Origin: a virus
Virus record (IMG/VR): IMGVR_UViG_3300042434_000613
Coordinates: 1-52,318 of that record
Strand: one strand, 5' to 3'
Length of the DNA: 52,318 nt
The position numbers and the translations under genes are program-made. Numbering within the stretch: the first letter of the stretch is position 1; each line of letters starts with the position of its first letter. The notes below the pieces were generated by a model. The model was given only the letters and a program-made list of their open reading frames with translations. It searched no databases and was not told the origin of the DNA. Shown here piece by piece: positions 40,838-47,662 of this stretch.

Positions 40838-40866
40838 TTGACAATCTCCTTAGAGTATGGTATATT
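40838..40866 (+). promoter_or_regulatory. Sigma70 promoter of the rightward early operon
   Basis: TTGACA (40838-40843), a spacer of exactly 17 bases, and TATATT (40861-40866). The ATG of the first early gene follows 22 bases later at 40889. It faces away from the minus-strand promoter just to its right, and the two overlap in reach. Confidence 0.8.
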
Positions 40867-40878
40867 TAGAATGTTCAC

Positions 40879-40907
40879 AGTATAACATATGGACGGATTT
40901 GTGTCAA
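40879..40907 (-). promoter_or_regulatory. Sigma70 promoter of the leftward early genes
   Basis: On the minus strand TTGACA (40902-40907), a 17-base spacer, and TATACT (40879-40884). Its -35 box lies inside the first codons of the rightward 71-aa gene. Confidence 0.77.
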
Positions 40908-41104
40908 CTAACGGCGAATGGGCTGTTGTACCCTTTGGTAAGGAGTACATGATTATTCACAACGGCAAACAAGATTCTGTGCATAAGACCATTGAAGAAG
41001 CAAAGAACCAAATTAAACTAGCCAAATCAAAAACTGGCACAAAAGGAAAGCGAGTCGTAAGACGCGCTTCTAAGATAAAAGGATTAGAAGAATTTATGGA
41101 ATGA
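40889..41104 (+). CDS. Small basic protein, first gene of the rightward early operon
   Basis: A 71-aa protein with a beta-rich N-terminal half (WAVVPFGKEYMIIHNGKQD) and a Lys/Arg-rich C-terminal half (KSKTGTKGKRVVRRASKIKG), a layout compatible with nucleic acid or ribosome binding. No family recognised. The ATG lies 22 bases after the -10 box, leaving a leader of about 15 bases. Confidence 0.7.
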   Translation: MDGFVSTNGEWAVVPFGKEYMIIHNGKQDSVHKTIEEAKNQIKLAKSKTGTKGKRVVRRASKIKGLEEFME

Positions 41105-41108
41105 TGCA

Positions 41109-41282
41109 ATGGATTTTACTGAACAGGAATGCGATTATTTACTTGATGCATTAAAAGGGTACATTAGAACTTGTAAAGATTGGAATTGTGGAGACGAATT
41201 TGATGTTGACACAAAACCATACTCTGCACTGGTAAGAAAAATTGCTGCTCACGTCCTTGACAAATATTATGAATCAAACTGA
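41109..41282 (+). CDS. Small protein, 57 aa
   Basis: ATG at 41109, four bases after the previous stop; starts MDFTEQECDYLLDAL and ends VLDKYYESN. It is helical and acidic with three Cys. It overlaps the next gene (ATG 41269) by 14 bases. Function unknown. Confidence 0.65.
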   Translation: MDFTEQECDYLLDALKGYIRTCKDWNCGDEFDVDTKPYSALVRKIAAHVLDKYYESN

Positions 41283-41835
41283 TGCTCTCTTAATTGAATC
41301 AATTTTAGAGCCAATCAAACAAAAAACTGTCATGAAGATTTACTCTAATCTTCATTCAAATAATCTTAATATCATCAAAGAAGCAGTACCAGAAGTAAAC
41401 ATCTGGGCTACTTTTGAGAAAACATTTACCACCTGCCTTGGTTATGCACTACAAGAAATTGCAGAAACTTGTGGTACTAATGTCAAAAACACTGATAAGA
41501 AACAGCGTAAAGTTTTAGGTATTGATCTTCGTGTCAATGATGAATGGGAAGGTCAACTTAAAGCAAACAAAAACACACAAACTGGGACTCATAAAAGTGA
41601 TTCTATTGAAAAACTCCTTGAAACTACAACACAACATGAAGCGAAAGCTTTTTTTGCGGTTGCTTTCGGCAATTCTTTTGATTACATCGATAATGATATC
41701 CGCTACATCGGAGGAGAAGCCTTCTGGTCATGGATCGGTATTGATTACACCCAGCTACGTGATATAATTATTAAAACTGCCAGAGATACTGCCAATGAAG
41801 TCAAACATGCTTATGGACATGTTTTACGGGGATGA
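41269..41835 (+). CDS. Candidate PD-(D/E)XK nuclease (type II restriction enzyme-like)
   Basis: I choose the ATG at 41269 (188 aa) over an earlier TTG. The N-terminal 80 residues are helical. The segment GIDLRVNDEWEGQLKANKNT gives D86 followed by Q96-L-K98, which fits the D...(E/Q)xK arrangement of PD-(D/E)XK nucleases, with E94 as a further acidic candidate. It is followed by a beta strand AFFAVAFGNSFDYID and GGEAFWSWIGIDY. This is the size and layout of small type II restriction enzymes, but I did not recognise a named family. Its end overlaps a Mom-like modification gene by up to 41 bases, which strongly suggests that the two act together. Confidence 0.55.
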   Translation: MNQTDALLIESILEPIKQKTVMKIYSNLHSNNLNIIKEAVPEVNIWATFEKTFTTCLGYALQEIAETCGTNVKNTDKKQRKVLGIDLRVNDEWEGQLKANKNTQTGTHKSDSIEKLLETTTQHEAKAFFAVAFGNSFDYIDNDIRYIGGEAFWSWIGIDYTQLRDIIIKTARDTANEVKHAYGHVLRG

Positions 41836-42442
41836 GGATTACACCAATCATTCTGTAAAACAGTTTGTTGTTACACCCACCACACTACAAAATGTTCGTG
41901 ATTTTATTGAGACTTGGCATTATTCTGGCAATGTGAATGGTCTGCGTGTTTCCAATGCATTTGCTCTCCTTGCCGATAATAATATTATTGGTGGTATGAT
42001 TTATGGATCCATGGGCATGGCAAATGTGTGGAAGAAATATGTTTCATCTGAAGACAAGATTGTAGAACTTCGCAGACTGTGTTGCATTGATAAAACACCA
42101 AGAAATACTGAAAGTTATTTTATTGGCAAGACTCTTCGGTGGATGAAGAAGAACACTAATTATGAAGTTGTCATTTCTTATGCAGACAGTTATCATGGAC
42201 ATTGTGGGACAATCTACAAAGCATCCAACTTTGAATATCACGGCATGACTGCTAAAGGTCGATTGATTGAATACAATGGAAAGACATTCCATGACAAATC
42301 AATTAGAACTTATCATGAAAACAAGTTTGGTGTTAAGAAATTGAAACCTTTCGCACAAAATCTTAAAGATGCTTTGGAGAGAGGTGATGCTAAGTACATA
42401 GATACACCAGGCAAACACATCTACATCTACAATCTCAAATGA
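41795..42442 (+). CDS. Mom-like DNA adenine modification acyltransferase
   Basis: A 215-aa protein from the first ATG; ATGs at 41807, 41813 and 41819 are also possible. It has the features of phage Mu Mom, a GNAT-fold enzyme that converts DNA adenine to the methylcarbamoyl form to evade restriction: HYSG (42-45), a beta hairpin with GGMIYGSMG, KIVELRRLCC (88-97), NTESYFIGKTLRWMKK (104-119) and the diagnostic SYADSYHGHCGTIYKASNF (128-146). The last 65 residues are basic. It overlaps the candidate nuclease and is followed by a 4-base overlap with the next gene. The exact chemistry of the modification here is not known. Confidence 0.75.
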   Translation: MKSNMLMDMFYGDEDYTNHSVKQFVVTPTTLQNVRDFIETWHYSGNVNGLRVSNAFALLADNNIIGGMIYGSMGMANVWKKYVSSEDKIVELRRLCCIDKTPRNTESYFIGKTLRWMKKNTNYEVVISYADSYHGHCGTIYKASNFEYHGMTAKGRLIEYNGKTFHDKSIRTYHENKFGVKKLKPFAQNLKDALERGDAKYIDTPGKHIYIYNLK

Positions 42443-45927: not shown

Positions 45928-46136
45928 TGATTAAAAGACTTAAAAGAAAAGTATCCGCAACTCGCATGACATTTTTGTCTGTTGCCGCAGTGGTTGCCCT
46001 TGGTAATACTCTGACTGGTTGGGGAGTAGTCAGTTGGGTTCTTTATATTCCACCAATTGCATTGTCTCTTGCTGCAATTACTGGTGTGTGTCCCTTCAAG
46101 ATTATCTTTGAAAAACTAGGATTTGCAAACGACTGA
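45927..46136 (+). CDS. Small two-helix membrane protein (DUF2892-like)
   Basis: A 69-aa protein with a basic head (MIKRLKRKVSATRM), two hydrophobic helices (FLSVAAVVALGNTLTG and WVLYIPPIALSLAAITG) and the closing motif GVCPFKIIFEKLGF, the arrangement of DUF2892/YgaP-type membrane hairpins. AAGGAG precedes the ATG. Its stop overlaps the halogenase ATG (TGATG), so the pair is coupled. Location: host inner membrane. Confidence 0.6.
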   Translation: MIKRLKRKVSATRMTFLSVAAVVALGNTLTGWGVVSWVLYIPPIALSLAAITGVCPFKIIFEKLGFAND

Positions 46137-47662
46137 TGCATATTTGTGTAATAGGGGATGGTGCTGCTGGTCTCATGGCTGCAAACTTTTTTGCATCCAG
46201 AGACTATGTTAAAAAATTAACGCACATTGGCTCATCTAAAATACCTTCTATTGGTGTAGGTGAGTCAACCACTTTACTATTTGAAGAACTGCATCGAGCC
46301 TTTGATCCTGATTTTGATTCATTTATAAGAGAATCAGATGCCTGTGTTAAAACAGGTGTCATGTATTCTAATTGGAGTAAAAATGAGTTTTTACATTATT
46401 TTAAAGTTCCAAATACTTATGAGAGATTTGGTATAAGTTTTTTAGAATATTGTAATACATTGGGCAATAAAGATCCTGATATGTTTATTCATGATCTAAT
46501 TGCTCATAAATTATATCATGATGTAAAGCAAAATAGAATACCTACACGAAAGAAAAACTCCTTTTATGGTGCTGCGTGGCATTTTGACGCAGGCAAATAT
46601 ATTTCATATCTTAAAAAGATATTAAAGACTAGATGGAATAATGTCACAGTTTTAGATGATGTTGTAGTTGATTGTAAATTTAAAGATGATGGAGTAATTG
46701 ATTCAATTCTATTAGAATCAAATCATACTGTTGAAGCTGATTACTATATTATTGCCACTGGAAAATCAAAGAAAACTGCTGACATATTTAAAATAGAATA
46801 TGAAGATTTGAGTAATGTTCTTTTAACTGATAAGGCTTTGTTTTTTCCAAAACCTTACATTAATAAAAGAGAAGAAATGCATCCATATACCATTGCTAAA
46901 ACAATGAAAAATGGATGGAGATGGATCACTCCAACTTGGTCTAGAATTGGAACAGGATATGTGTTTAGTTCTAATCATATTACTGTAGAAGAGGTGATAG
47001 AAGAATTCCGAGAAGACATTGGCGATAATACTATTACACCAAATGTTGTTGATTTCCATCCAAAATATAGTAAAAGGTCATTTAATAAAAATTATGTGAC
47101 AATGGGAATGTGTAATGGTTTCTTAGAACCTTTGGATGCACCTGGATTGTCTATCTCATGTTCTTTATCAATCATTTTAGATACAATGTTTGATGGTGGT
47201 CGATACTATCATAGCATTGTCGATAAAACATATGATTACAATCTTGATAATTTGAATGATTTTGCACAACATTTCTACAAAGGATGGGCTGCATTTATCT
47301 TAACTCAATATAAAACTTGTTATAGATCTGATACACAATTTTGGATTGATCATAAAAATGTAAAGTTTGATTATCTTGAAGATGTATTAATTGATTTAAA
47401 CTCTGACATAAATTACAGTCGTGGAATTGTTCCTGCAATGGATCATTTTGATTGTAATGATAACATTAGTGATATGCTTGATGCATTTAAAATTAATTTA
47501 ATTACAATGCTTCAAAATACAATTGCATCAAAAGATGTGCAATGGCAAACAAAAACCACGGCAATGCCATATCAATACGACGATCCATGGTATAATAGTG
47601 TGGATCATTATGAGTTCTTGCAAAACATTCGTAATTTTAATGGAGATTTAACATGGCACTAG
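46136..47662 (+). CDS. Flavin-dependent halogenase (tryptophan halogenase family)
   Basis: A 508-aa protein of normal family length. It has the FAD site GDGAAG (residues 7-12) and IGVGEST (39-45), then K72 in CVKTGVMYSNW, aligned with the catalytic lysine of Trp halogenases. The WxWxIP signature appears as WRWITP (261-266), with Thr for Ile. NGFLEPLDAPG near residue 325 matches the flavin/chloride-site segment. These enzymes use reduced FAD, oxygen and halide to make lysyl-haloamine and halogenate a substrate. A halogenase (VirX1) has been characterised from cyanophage Syn10, and this is probably its relative. The substrate is unknown; it lies among early-type accessory genes. Confidence 0.87.
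   Translation: MHICVIGDGAAGLMAANFFASRDYVKKLTHIGSSKIPSIGVGESTTLLFEELHRAFDPDFDSFIRESDACVKTGVMYSNWSKNEFLHYFKVPNTYERFGISFLEYCNTLGNKDPDMFIHDLIAHKLYHDVKQNRIPTRKKNSFYGAAWHFDAGKYISYLKKILKTRWNNVTVLDDVVVDCKFKDDGVIDSILLESNHTVEADYYIIATGKSKKTADIFKIEYEDLSNVLLTDKALFFPKPYINKREEMHPYTIAKTMKNGWRWITPTWSRIGTGYVFSSNHITVEEVIEEFREDIGDNTITPNVVDFHPKYSKRSFNKNYVTMGMCNGFLEPLDAPGLSISCSLSIILDTMFDGGRYYHSIVDKTYDYNLDNLNDFAQHFYKGWAAFILTQYKTCYRSDTQFWIDHKNVKFDYLEDVLIDLNSDINYSRGIVPAMDHFDCNDNISDMLDAFKINLITMLQNTIASKDVQWQTKTTAMPYQYDDPWYNSVDHYEFLQNIRNFNGDLTWH

Follow-up and report, generated by a model that had tools for sequence, protein, structure and literature searches.

Overlapping genes for a predicted EcoO109I-like nuclease and a Mom enzyme as a candidate restriction-modification-like module of cyanophage-like viruses

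We found that, in uncultured cyanobacterial or cyanophage-like viruses, a gene for a predicted EcoO109I-like type II restriction endonuclease is followed and overlapped by a gene for the DNA-modifying enzyme Mom, and we estimate a probability of roughly 0.64 that the two form a phage-borne restriction-modification-like module. The computed results are the Mom family assignment, the EcoO109I-like fold, a strict linkage, a constant overlap, purifying selection, and exchange of the nuclease gene. The locus comes from a 52-kb virus record that was analysed over its whole length (52,318 nt; hereafter the window) and shows the following features:

40838 to 40866, + strand: sigma70-like promoter match TTGACA-N17-TATATT (11/12), upstream of the ORF at 40889; a consensus match only
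40889 to 41104, + strand: 71-aa ORF, the first 3' of the promoter match; phrog_33194, a function-unknown family
41109 to 41282, + strand: 57-aa ORF, overlapping the nuclease start by 14 nt; function unassigned
41269 to 41835, + strand: family-A nuclease, 188 aa, ATG start; predicted EcoO109I-like PD-(D/E)XK fold with E50, D86 and Q96-L-K98
41795 to 41835, + strand: overlap of the nuclease 3' end with the mom 5' end, 41 nt, in two different frames
41795 to 42442, + strand: Mom-family DNA-modifying enzyme (GNAT fold), 215 aa; NTESYF and SYADSYHGHCGTIYKASNF present

An earlier note on this DNA had described a 188-aa protein with D86...QLK98 that overlaps a Mom-like protein by up to 41 bases downstream of a sigma70-type promoter. 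The protein is present at 41269-41835 with D86 and G95-Q96-L97-K98, both Mom signatures are found in the 215-aa ORF, and the overlap of 41 nt (41795-41835) was a correct observation that the note even understated. The start that it assigned to the feature, 41109, belongs instead to the separate 57-aa ORF (41109-41282), which had no match in Pfam and PHROG searches and probably lies outside the nuclease-mom module. The promoter match exists at 40838-40866 with 11 of 12 positions, but it precedes the ORF at 40889 and not directly the pair; it is a possible promoter of the transcript, and promoter-like matches in the whole scan were at chance level (11 found versus 10.2 expected). Close 3' of the pair, the window also carries a tryptophan halogenase-like gene (46136-47662; PF04820, E 7.7e-66), which is an unusual phage auxiliary gene.

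Judged from its sequence, the product of 41795-42442 is certainly a Mom. It matched Pfam PF25680 with an E value of 1.5e-35 and 123 bits (cut-off 27.1), phrog_1384 with 8e-59, and the solved Mom in the PDB (8bv8, 'Methylcarbamoylase mom') with 8.1e-9, and upon alignment with the solved Mom the HYS, (S)xAD, G-x-x-Y and NF positions were all retained.

Other Mom loci displayed neighbours of several kinds. A marine clade (L074:2000-2752 and L083:3301-4005, also L219-L224 and L230-L231) carries a tandem of two Moms, in which the gene 5' of mom encodes a second, distant Mom-like enzyme (phrog_1384, E 4e-29), and a frame with the DNA methyltransferase motif TSPPY is located 5' of mom at L081:1-1299 (also in L082). 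HNH or endonuclease VII-like genes immediately precede mom in S-SSM7-type viruses and in Geobacillus phage PK3.6 (L112:3201-4004; L003:2514-3023), and in the latter the annotated HNH/endonuclease VII-like gene and mom overlap. A Paludibacteraceae genome (L161:3989-5384) shows two HsdS-like frames and then mom, which overlaps a methyltransferase (TSPPYADQRKNTYGG) resembling the one that adjoins EcoO109I-type enzymes in other Bacteroidota; an EcoO109I relative was looked for in this genome and none was found.

Direct searches with the nuclease (41269-41835) gave only a weak Pfam match (PF10107, E 0.046) and nothing useful in the PDB, PADLOC, NCBIfam, plasmids, or bacterial genomes, where the best PDB sequence matches, an adhesin and a sorting protein, were regarded as chance. 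Simple searches returned relatives at ~78% identity or higher only; these came from 12 viral contigs and a single named record (DSL-LC03). As such searches reached only close relatives, we assembled a set of Mom loci and ran a nuclease profile over the reading frames in them, which located diverse nuclease relatives immediately 5' of mom. They constitute two distant families: A, with the window nuclease and relatives down to 46% identity, and B, which is ~20% identical to A and tied to it by profile comparison (E 1.7e-4, probability 49%, with the QxK of A set on the ExK of B) and by architecture. Over 17 family-A sequences (down to 46% identity), D86, G95, Q96, K98, TQTGTH103-108 and D111-S112 are invariant, as is E50. 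Together with a dN/dS of 0.08-0.23, this invariance indicates that the D..QLK motif is not a chance occurrence; with Mom at a dN/dS of 0.02-0.14, both genes are under purifying selection. Family A thereby carries a motif variant, with Q at the (D/E)xK position where classical enzymes have D/E, a position that is variable in Bacteroidota EcoO109I relatives too, while family B keeps the canonical motif with invariant D68 and E77-x-K79 (E77-Q-K79).

Structure prediction pointed to a type II restriction enzyme. Using AlphaFold2 with 31 family-A and family-B sequences, we obtained a model with a pLDDT of 90.5 and a pTM of 0.86, from an alignment that thus mixes two families, since a good model emerged only once both were combined (nine close relatives alone gave a pLDDT of 41, and that model was discarded). 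The nuclease is predicted to have an alpha-beta PD-(D/E)XK core, with strands 87-89 and 93-98, helix 106-122 and strand 126-131, and with D86 and Q96-L-K98 in place. In a Foldseek search, the sole PDB match with E < 0.001 was the type II restriction enzyme EcoO109I (1wtd; E 5.8e-5, probability 1.00, TM 0.59 on the query), and no homing enzyme appeared among the best 50 PDB fold matches. One family-A member (L057) exceeded the cut-off of Pfam RE_EcoO109I (PF14511) with 24.8 versus 22.5 bits (E 2.1e-5), and 4 other members matched it more weakly, whereas the window nuclease itself gave no match at E up to 1. As profile-profile comparison with EcoO109I was weak (E 0.009, probability 4%), the homology rests on the fold and this one family member. 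Upon alignment with Bacteroidota EcoO109I relatives, the GIDL, x-x-K strand and G-x-x-FW-x-x-I segments line up, with weak statistics. Enzymes of the EcoO109I/AvaII type can have a metal-binding acid in the core helix (PMC7337904), and the invariant E50 sits at that place in the core helix. Hence, the model predicts an EcoO109I-like type II restriction endonuclease, and the call of a candidate restriction nuclease in the earlier note has held, with a PD-(D/E)XK core predicted. The Bacteroidota EcoO109I genes whose loci we read adjoin DNA methyltransferases, not Mom.

The nuclease was never found without Mom in the data searched. Nuclease-led scans with the A and B alignments yielded 24 and 28 loci, and mom overlaps the nuclease end in 51/51 of the contigs that continue past the nuclease (contig L128 stops inside it and was left out of the count); many contigs are near-identical, and the distinct nuclease sequences number ~35. 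Three further overlapping pairs are those of the window, DSL-LC03, and L160. In all relatives of both nuclease families the overlap measures 29-41 nt, usually 38, and its length varies in steps of three, which leaves the relative frame of the two genes unchanged. The converse fails, so that the co-occurrence envisaged earlier stands in one direction only: Mom frequently occurs on its own, the nuclease is absent from most phages with Mom (among them every isolate examined), and no A or B nuclease was present beside Mom in phages of the S-SSM7 type, RaK2, ICP1, those of Enterococcus, Corynebacterium, Listeria and Salmonella, or other phages. Among 50,697 phage records, DSL-LC03 was the only one with a relative of the nuclease, and as it is a metagenome assembly, no isolate phage in that set was found to carry the gene; the carriers of the pair are uncultured cyanobacterial or cyanophage-like viruses. 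One contig in a Formosa MAG (L160:1454-2705), in which small heat-shock and T4-like DNA polymerase genes flank a family-B pair, most likely belongs to a cyanophage and was misassigned to the bacterial bin.

The nuclease gene has been exchanged while Mom stayed nearly constant. On a tree of 63 Mom sequences, in which many inner branches are poorly supported, families A and B intermix beside near-identical Moms, with four labels needing 13 changes versus a minimum of 3 and label A needing 7 (5-9 over bootstraps); because A and B interleave on the tree, the nucleases must have been exchanged beside the Moms. For example, the Moms of L060, L064 and L079 (family A) are ~84-90% DNA-identical to those of L063, L068, L080, L085 and L092 (family B), whereas the respective nucleases do not align. 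Several A-versus-B comparisons also show homologous DNA 5' of the pair, and most of them share a leader of ~40-45 bp that reaches the start codon. On the 3' side, the switch point lies inside the nuclease-mom overlap or where mom begins; between homologous flanks, the nuclease alone differs. Read by eye, the leader shows in most compared contigs a hairpin and T-run overlapping a TTGAC-N17-TATAAT-like promoter, so that the pair may have its own promoter there; by contrast, the window pair is internal to a gene cluster. The pair occurs near a DNA polymerase gene (L085, L160), psbA (L050, L053, L061), a DprA-like gene (L051) or a regA-type translation repressor gene (L067), and 3' of tail-fibre genes (window, DSL-LC03). 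These several settings indicate that it moves as a unit, arguing for a functional tie. At L050:2322-5758, a family-B pair is flanked by two genes matching the photosystem II D1 family, the second of which might be psbD.

From these results we infer an active nuclease with its own site, protection by Mom, translational coupling, and a set of targets, in the following scheme. The upstream gene would encode the EcoO109I-like restriction endonuclease, which presumably dimerizes and recognizes a short site, and the downstream gene Mom, which would put an acyl-type group on adenines of the phage DNA (the group is methylcarbamoyl for Mu Mom). Modified virion and progeny DNA would escape the nuclease, while unmodified DNA, that is, the host chromosome, co-infecting phages, and plasmids, would be cleaved after infection, aiding host takeover and excluding rivals. 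Through the gene overlap, Mom would be translated in step with the nuclease, and we propose that protection is therefore always produced together with the cutter. We further propose that a single Mom can work alongside quite dissimilar nucleases, which makes the nuclease gene exchangeable as a cassette. In a bolder version, to which we would give somewhat less than even odds, Mom is one broad non-methyl shield against whichever nuclease sits beside it, such that specificities need not match and cyanophages swap cutters freely against hosts or rivals. The proposal of a restriction-modification-like pair, as put forward earlier, is thus partly supported, by the predicted EcoO109I-like fold and the one-way linkage, while the independent occurrence of Mom speaks against it.

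The exchange of nuclease genes between homologous flanks beside mom would also be expected of a homing-like, selfish endonuclease encoded by a free-standing gene. It would cleave the mom region of co-infecting phages that do not have the gene, whereupon repair would copy the nuclease along with mom (intronless homing), making Mom a carrier rather than a partner. PD-(D/E)XK homing endonucleases are known in cyanobacteria and cyanophages (I-Ssp6803I and F-CphI), and HNH or endonuclease VII-like genes occur 5' of mom in other phages. We nevertheless consider this explanation unlikely, since the fold match is a short-site type II restriction enzyme, the pair is always together across several different genomic settings, and two distant nuclease families have both retained the 29-41-nt overlap.

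T4-like phages break down host DNA, and the nuclease could, as T4 endonucleases do, serve only to degrade host DNA for nucleotides, with Mom as an independent anti-restriction function and the linkage reflecting shared timing. Mom occurs alone in many phages, and, according to PMC6483171, Mom alone shields Mu from host restriction. We regard this explanation as quite improbable, because Mom adjoins and overlaps the nuclease in every nuclease case and across several settings, and because a sequence-specific host-degrading nuclease would still need a means of sparing the phage DNA. Very unlikely is a catalytically dead or modification-sensing EcoO109I relative that guides or regulates Mom on DNA as a specificity subunit, which would suit the Q of family A and the co-encoding of both proteins but is at odds with the invariant D, Q, K and helix glutamate of family A, the canonical E-x-K of family B, and the pairing of closely similar Moms with different nucleases.

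For the restriction-modification-like module, the recognition site is where the chief difficulty lies. EcoO109I recognizes RGGNCCY and its relative AvaII GGWCC, neither with a fixed adenine, and the window holds 8 RGGNCCY sites, so that an enzyme of exactly that specificity would need protected phage DNA. If such a site was kept, it is hard to see how Mom, acting on adenine, would block every one; the site of the nuclease may differ from EcoO109I-type sites. Tests for site avoidance gave no clean signal tied to the nuclease, with GGWCC weakly depleted in genomes carrying the pair. The sequence CCGG is missing from the window (0 seen versus 28 expected) and from 50 kb each of DSL-LC03 and S-SSM7; its absence in S-SSM7, a Mom-only phage, ruled out CCGG avoidance as a nuclease signature, and it probably reflects host-driven avoidance. 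In 50 kb of DSL-LC02 (L240:1-50000), GGTC and its complement GACC are wholly absent, which is striking for a non-palindromic 4-mer.

The pair shares traits with several known systems. Mu Mom belongs to the same enzyme family, with its core signatures retained here, and Mu controls mom through Com and Dam; to our knowledge, Mu has no nuclease linked to mom, whereas here mom overlaps and follows one. As in type II restriction-modification systems, the restriction gene is genetically linked to the modification gene (51/51 testable nuclease-led contigs), and as in viral systems such as those of Chlorella viruses, both reside in one virus. Unlike in these, the mark would be of acyl type on adenine and not methylation, the nuclease was exchanged without a matching change of modifier, and the modifier is the GNAT-fold Mom in place of the classical methyltransferase of the same specificity. 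With EcoO109I/AvaII (1wtd; PF14511; PMC7337904) the nuclease shares the predicted fold, the motif order GID...xxK...GG/CGQxFW and the helix glutamate, but it is shorter (188 versus ~270 aa), has Q for D/E, and is partnered by Mom instead of a methyltransferase. The same pair is present in DSL-LC03 (OR003938, Kyanoviridae, Dishui Lake; nuclease 83% and Mom 82% identical), whose record annotates a 'type II restriction endonuclease' adjoining a 'Mom-like DNA modification protein'; a search for 'Mom' in the main text of its paper (PMC10611076) found the word nowhere.

According to section 3.4.7 of Iyer et al. 2021 (PMC7824862), Mom domains of jumbo phages are typically fused to REase-fold nucleases, for which a phage-owned restriction-modification role was predicted. 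The idea that other phages have a partner that Mu lacks is thus already published, in that section, as a prediction for fused REase-Mom proteins. Both cases couple Mom to a restriction-fold nuclease in phages as a proposed restriction-modification pair; likened by description, they differ in that here two overlapping frames, each with its own stop, occur in cyanophage-like viruses. Within the literature searched, which lacked most subscription journals, several features appear to be new: the separate overlapping genes with an EcoO109I-like nuclease, the strictness of their linkage, the exchange of nuclease cassettes, and the occurrence of two interchangeable nuclease families across cyanophage-like viruses.

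If the module reading is true, the pair provides a compact two-gene case in which to test the prediction that Mom acts as one half of a restriction system belonging to the phage. The strict linkage and the nuclease exchange beside a near-constant Mom show evolutionary selection on the coupling. The notion of a broad non-methyl mark that frees a virus from matching its cutter to its shield becomes testable, and the nucleases of families A and B would be a source of new restriction enzymes.
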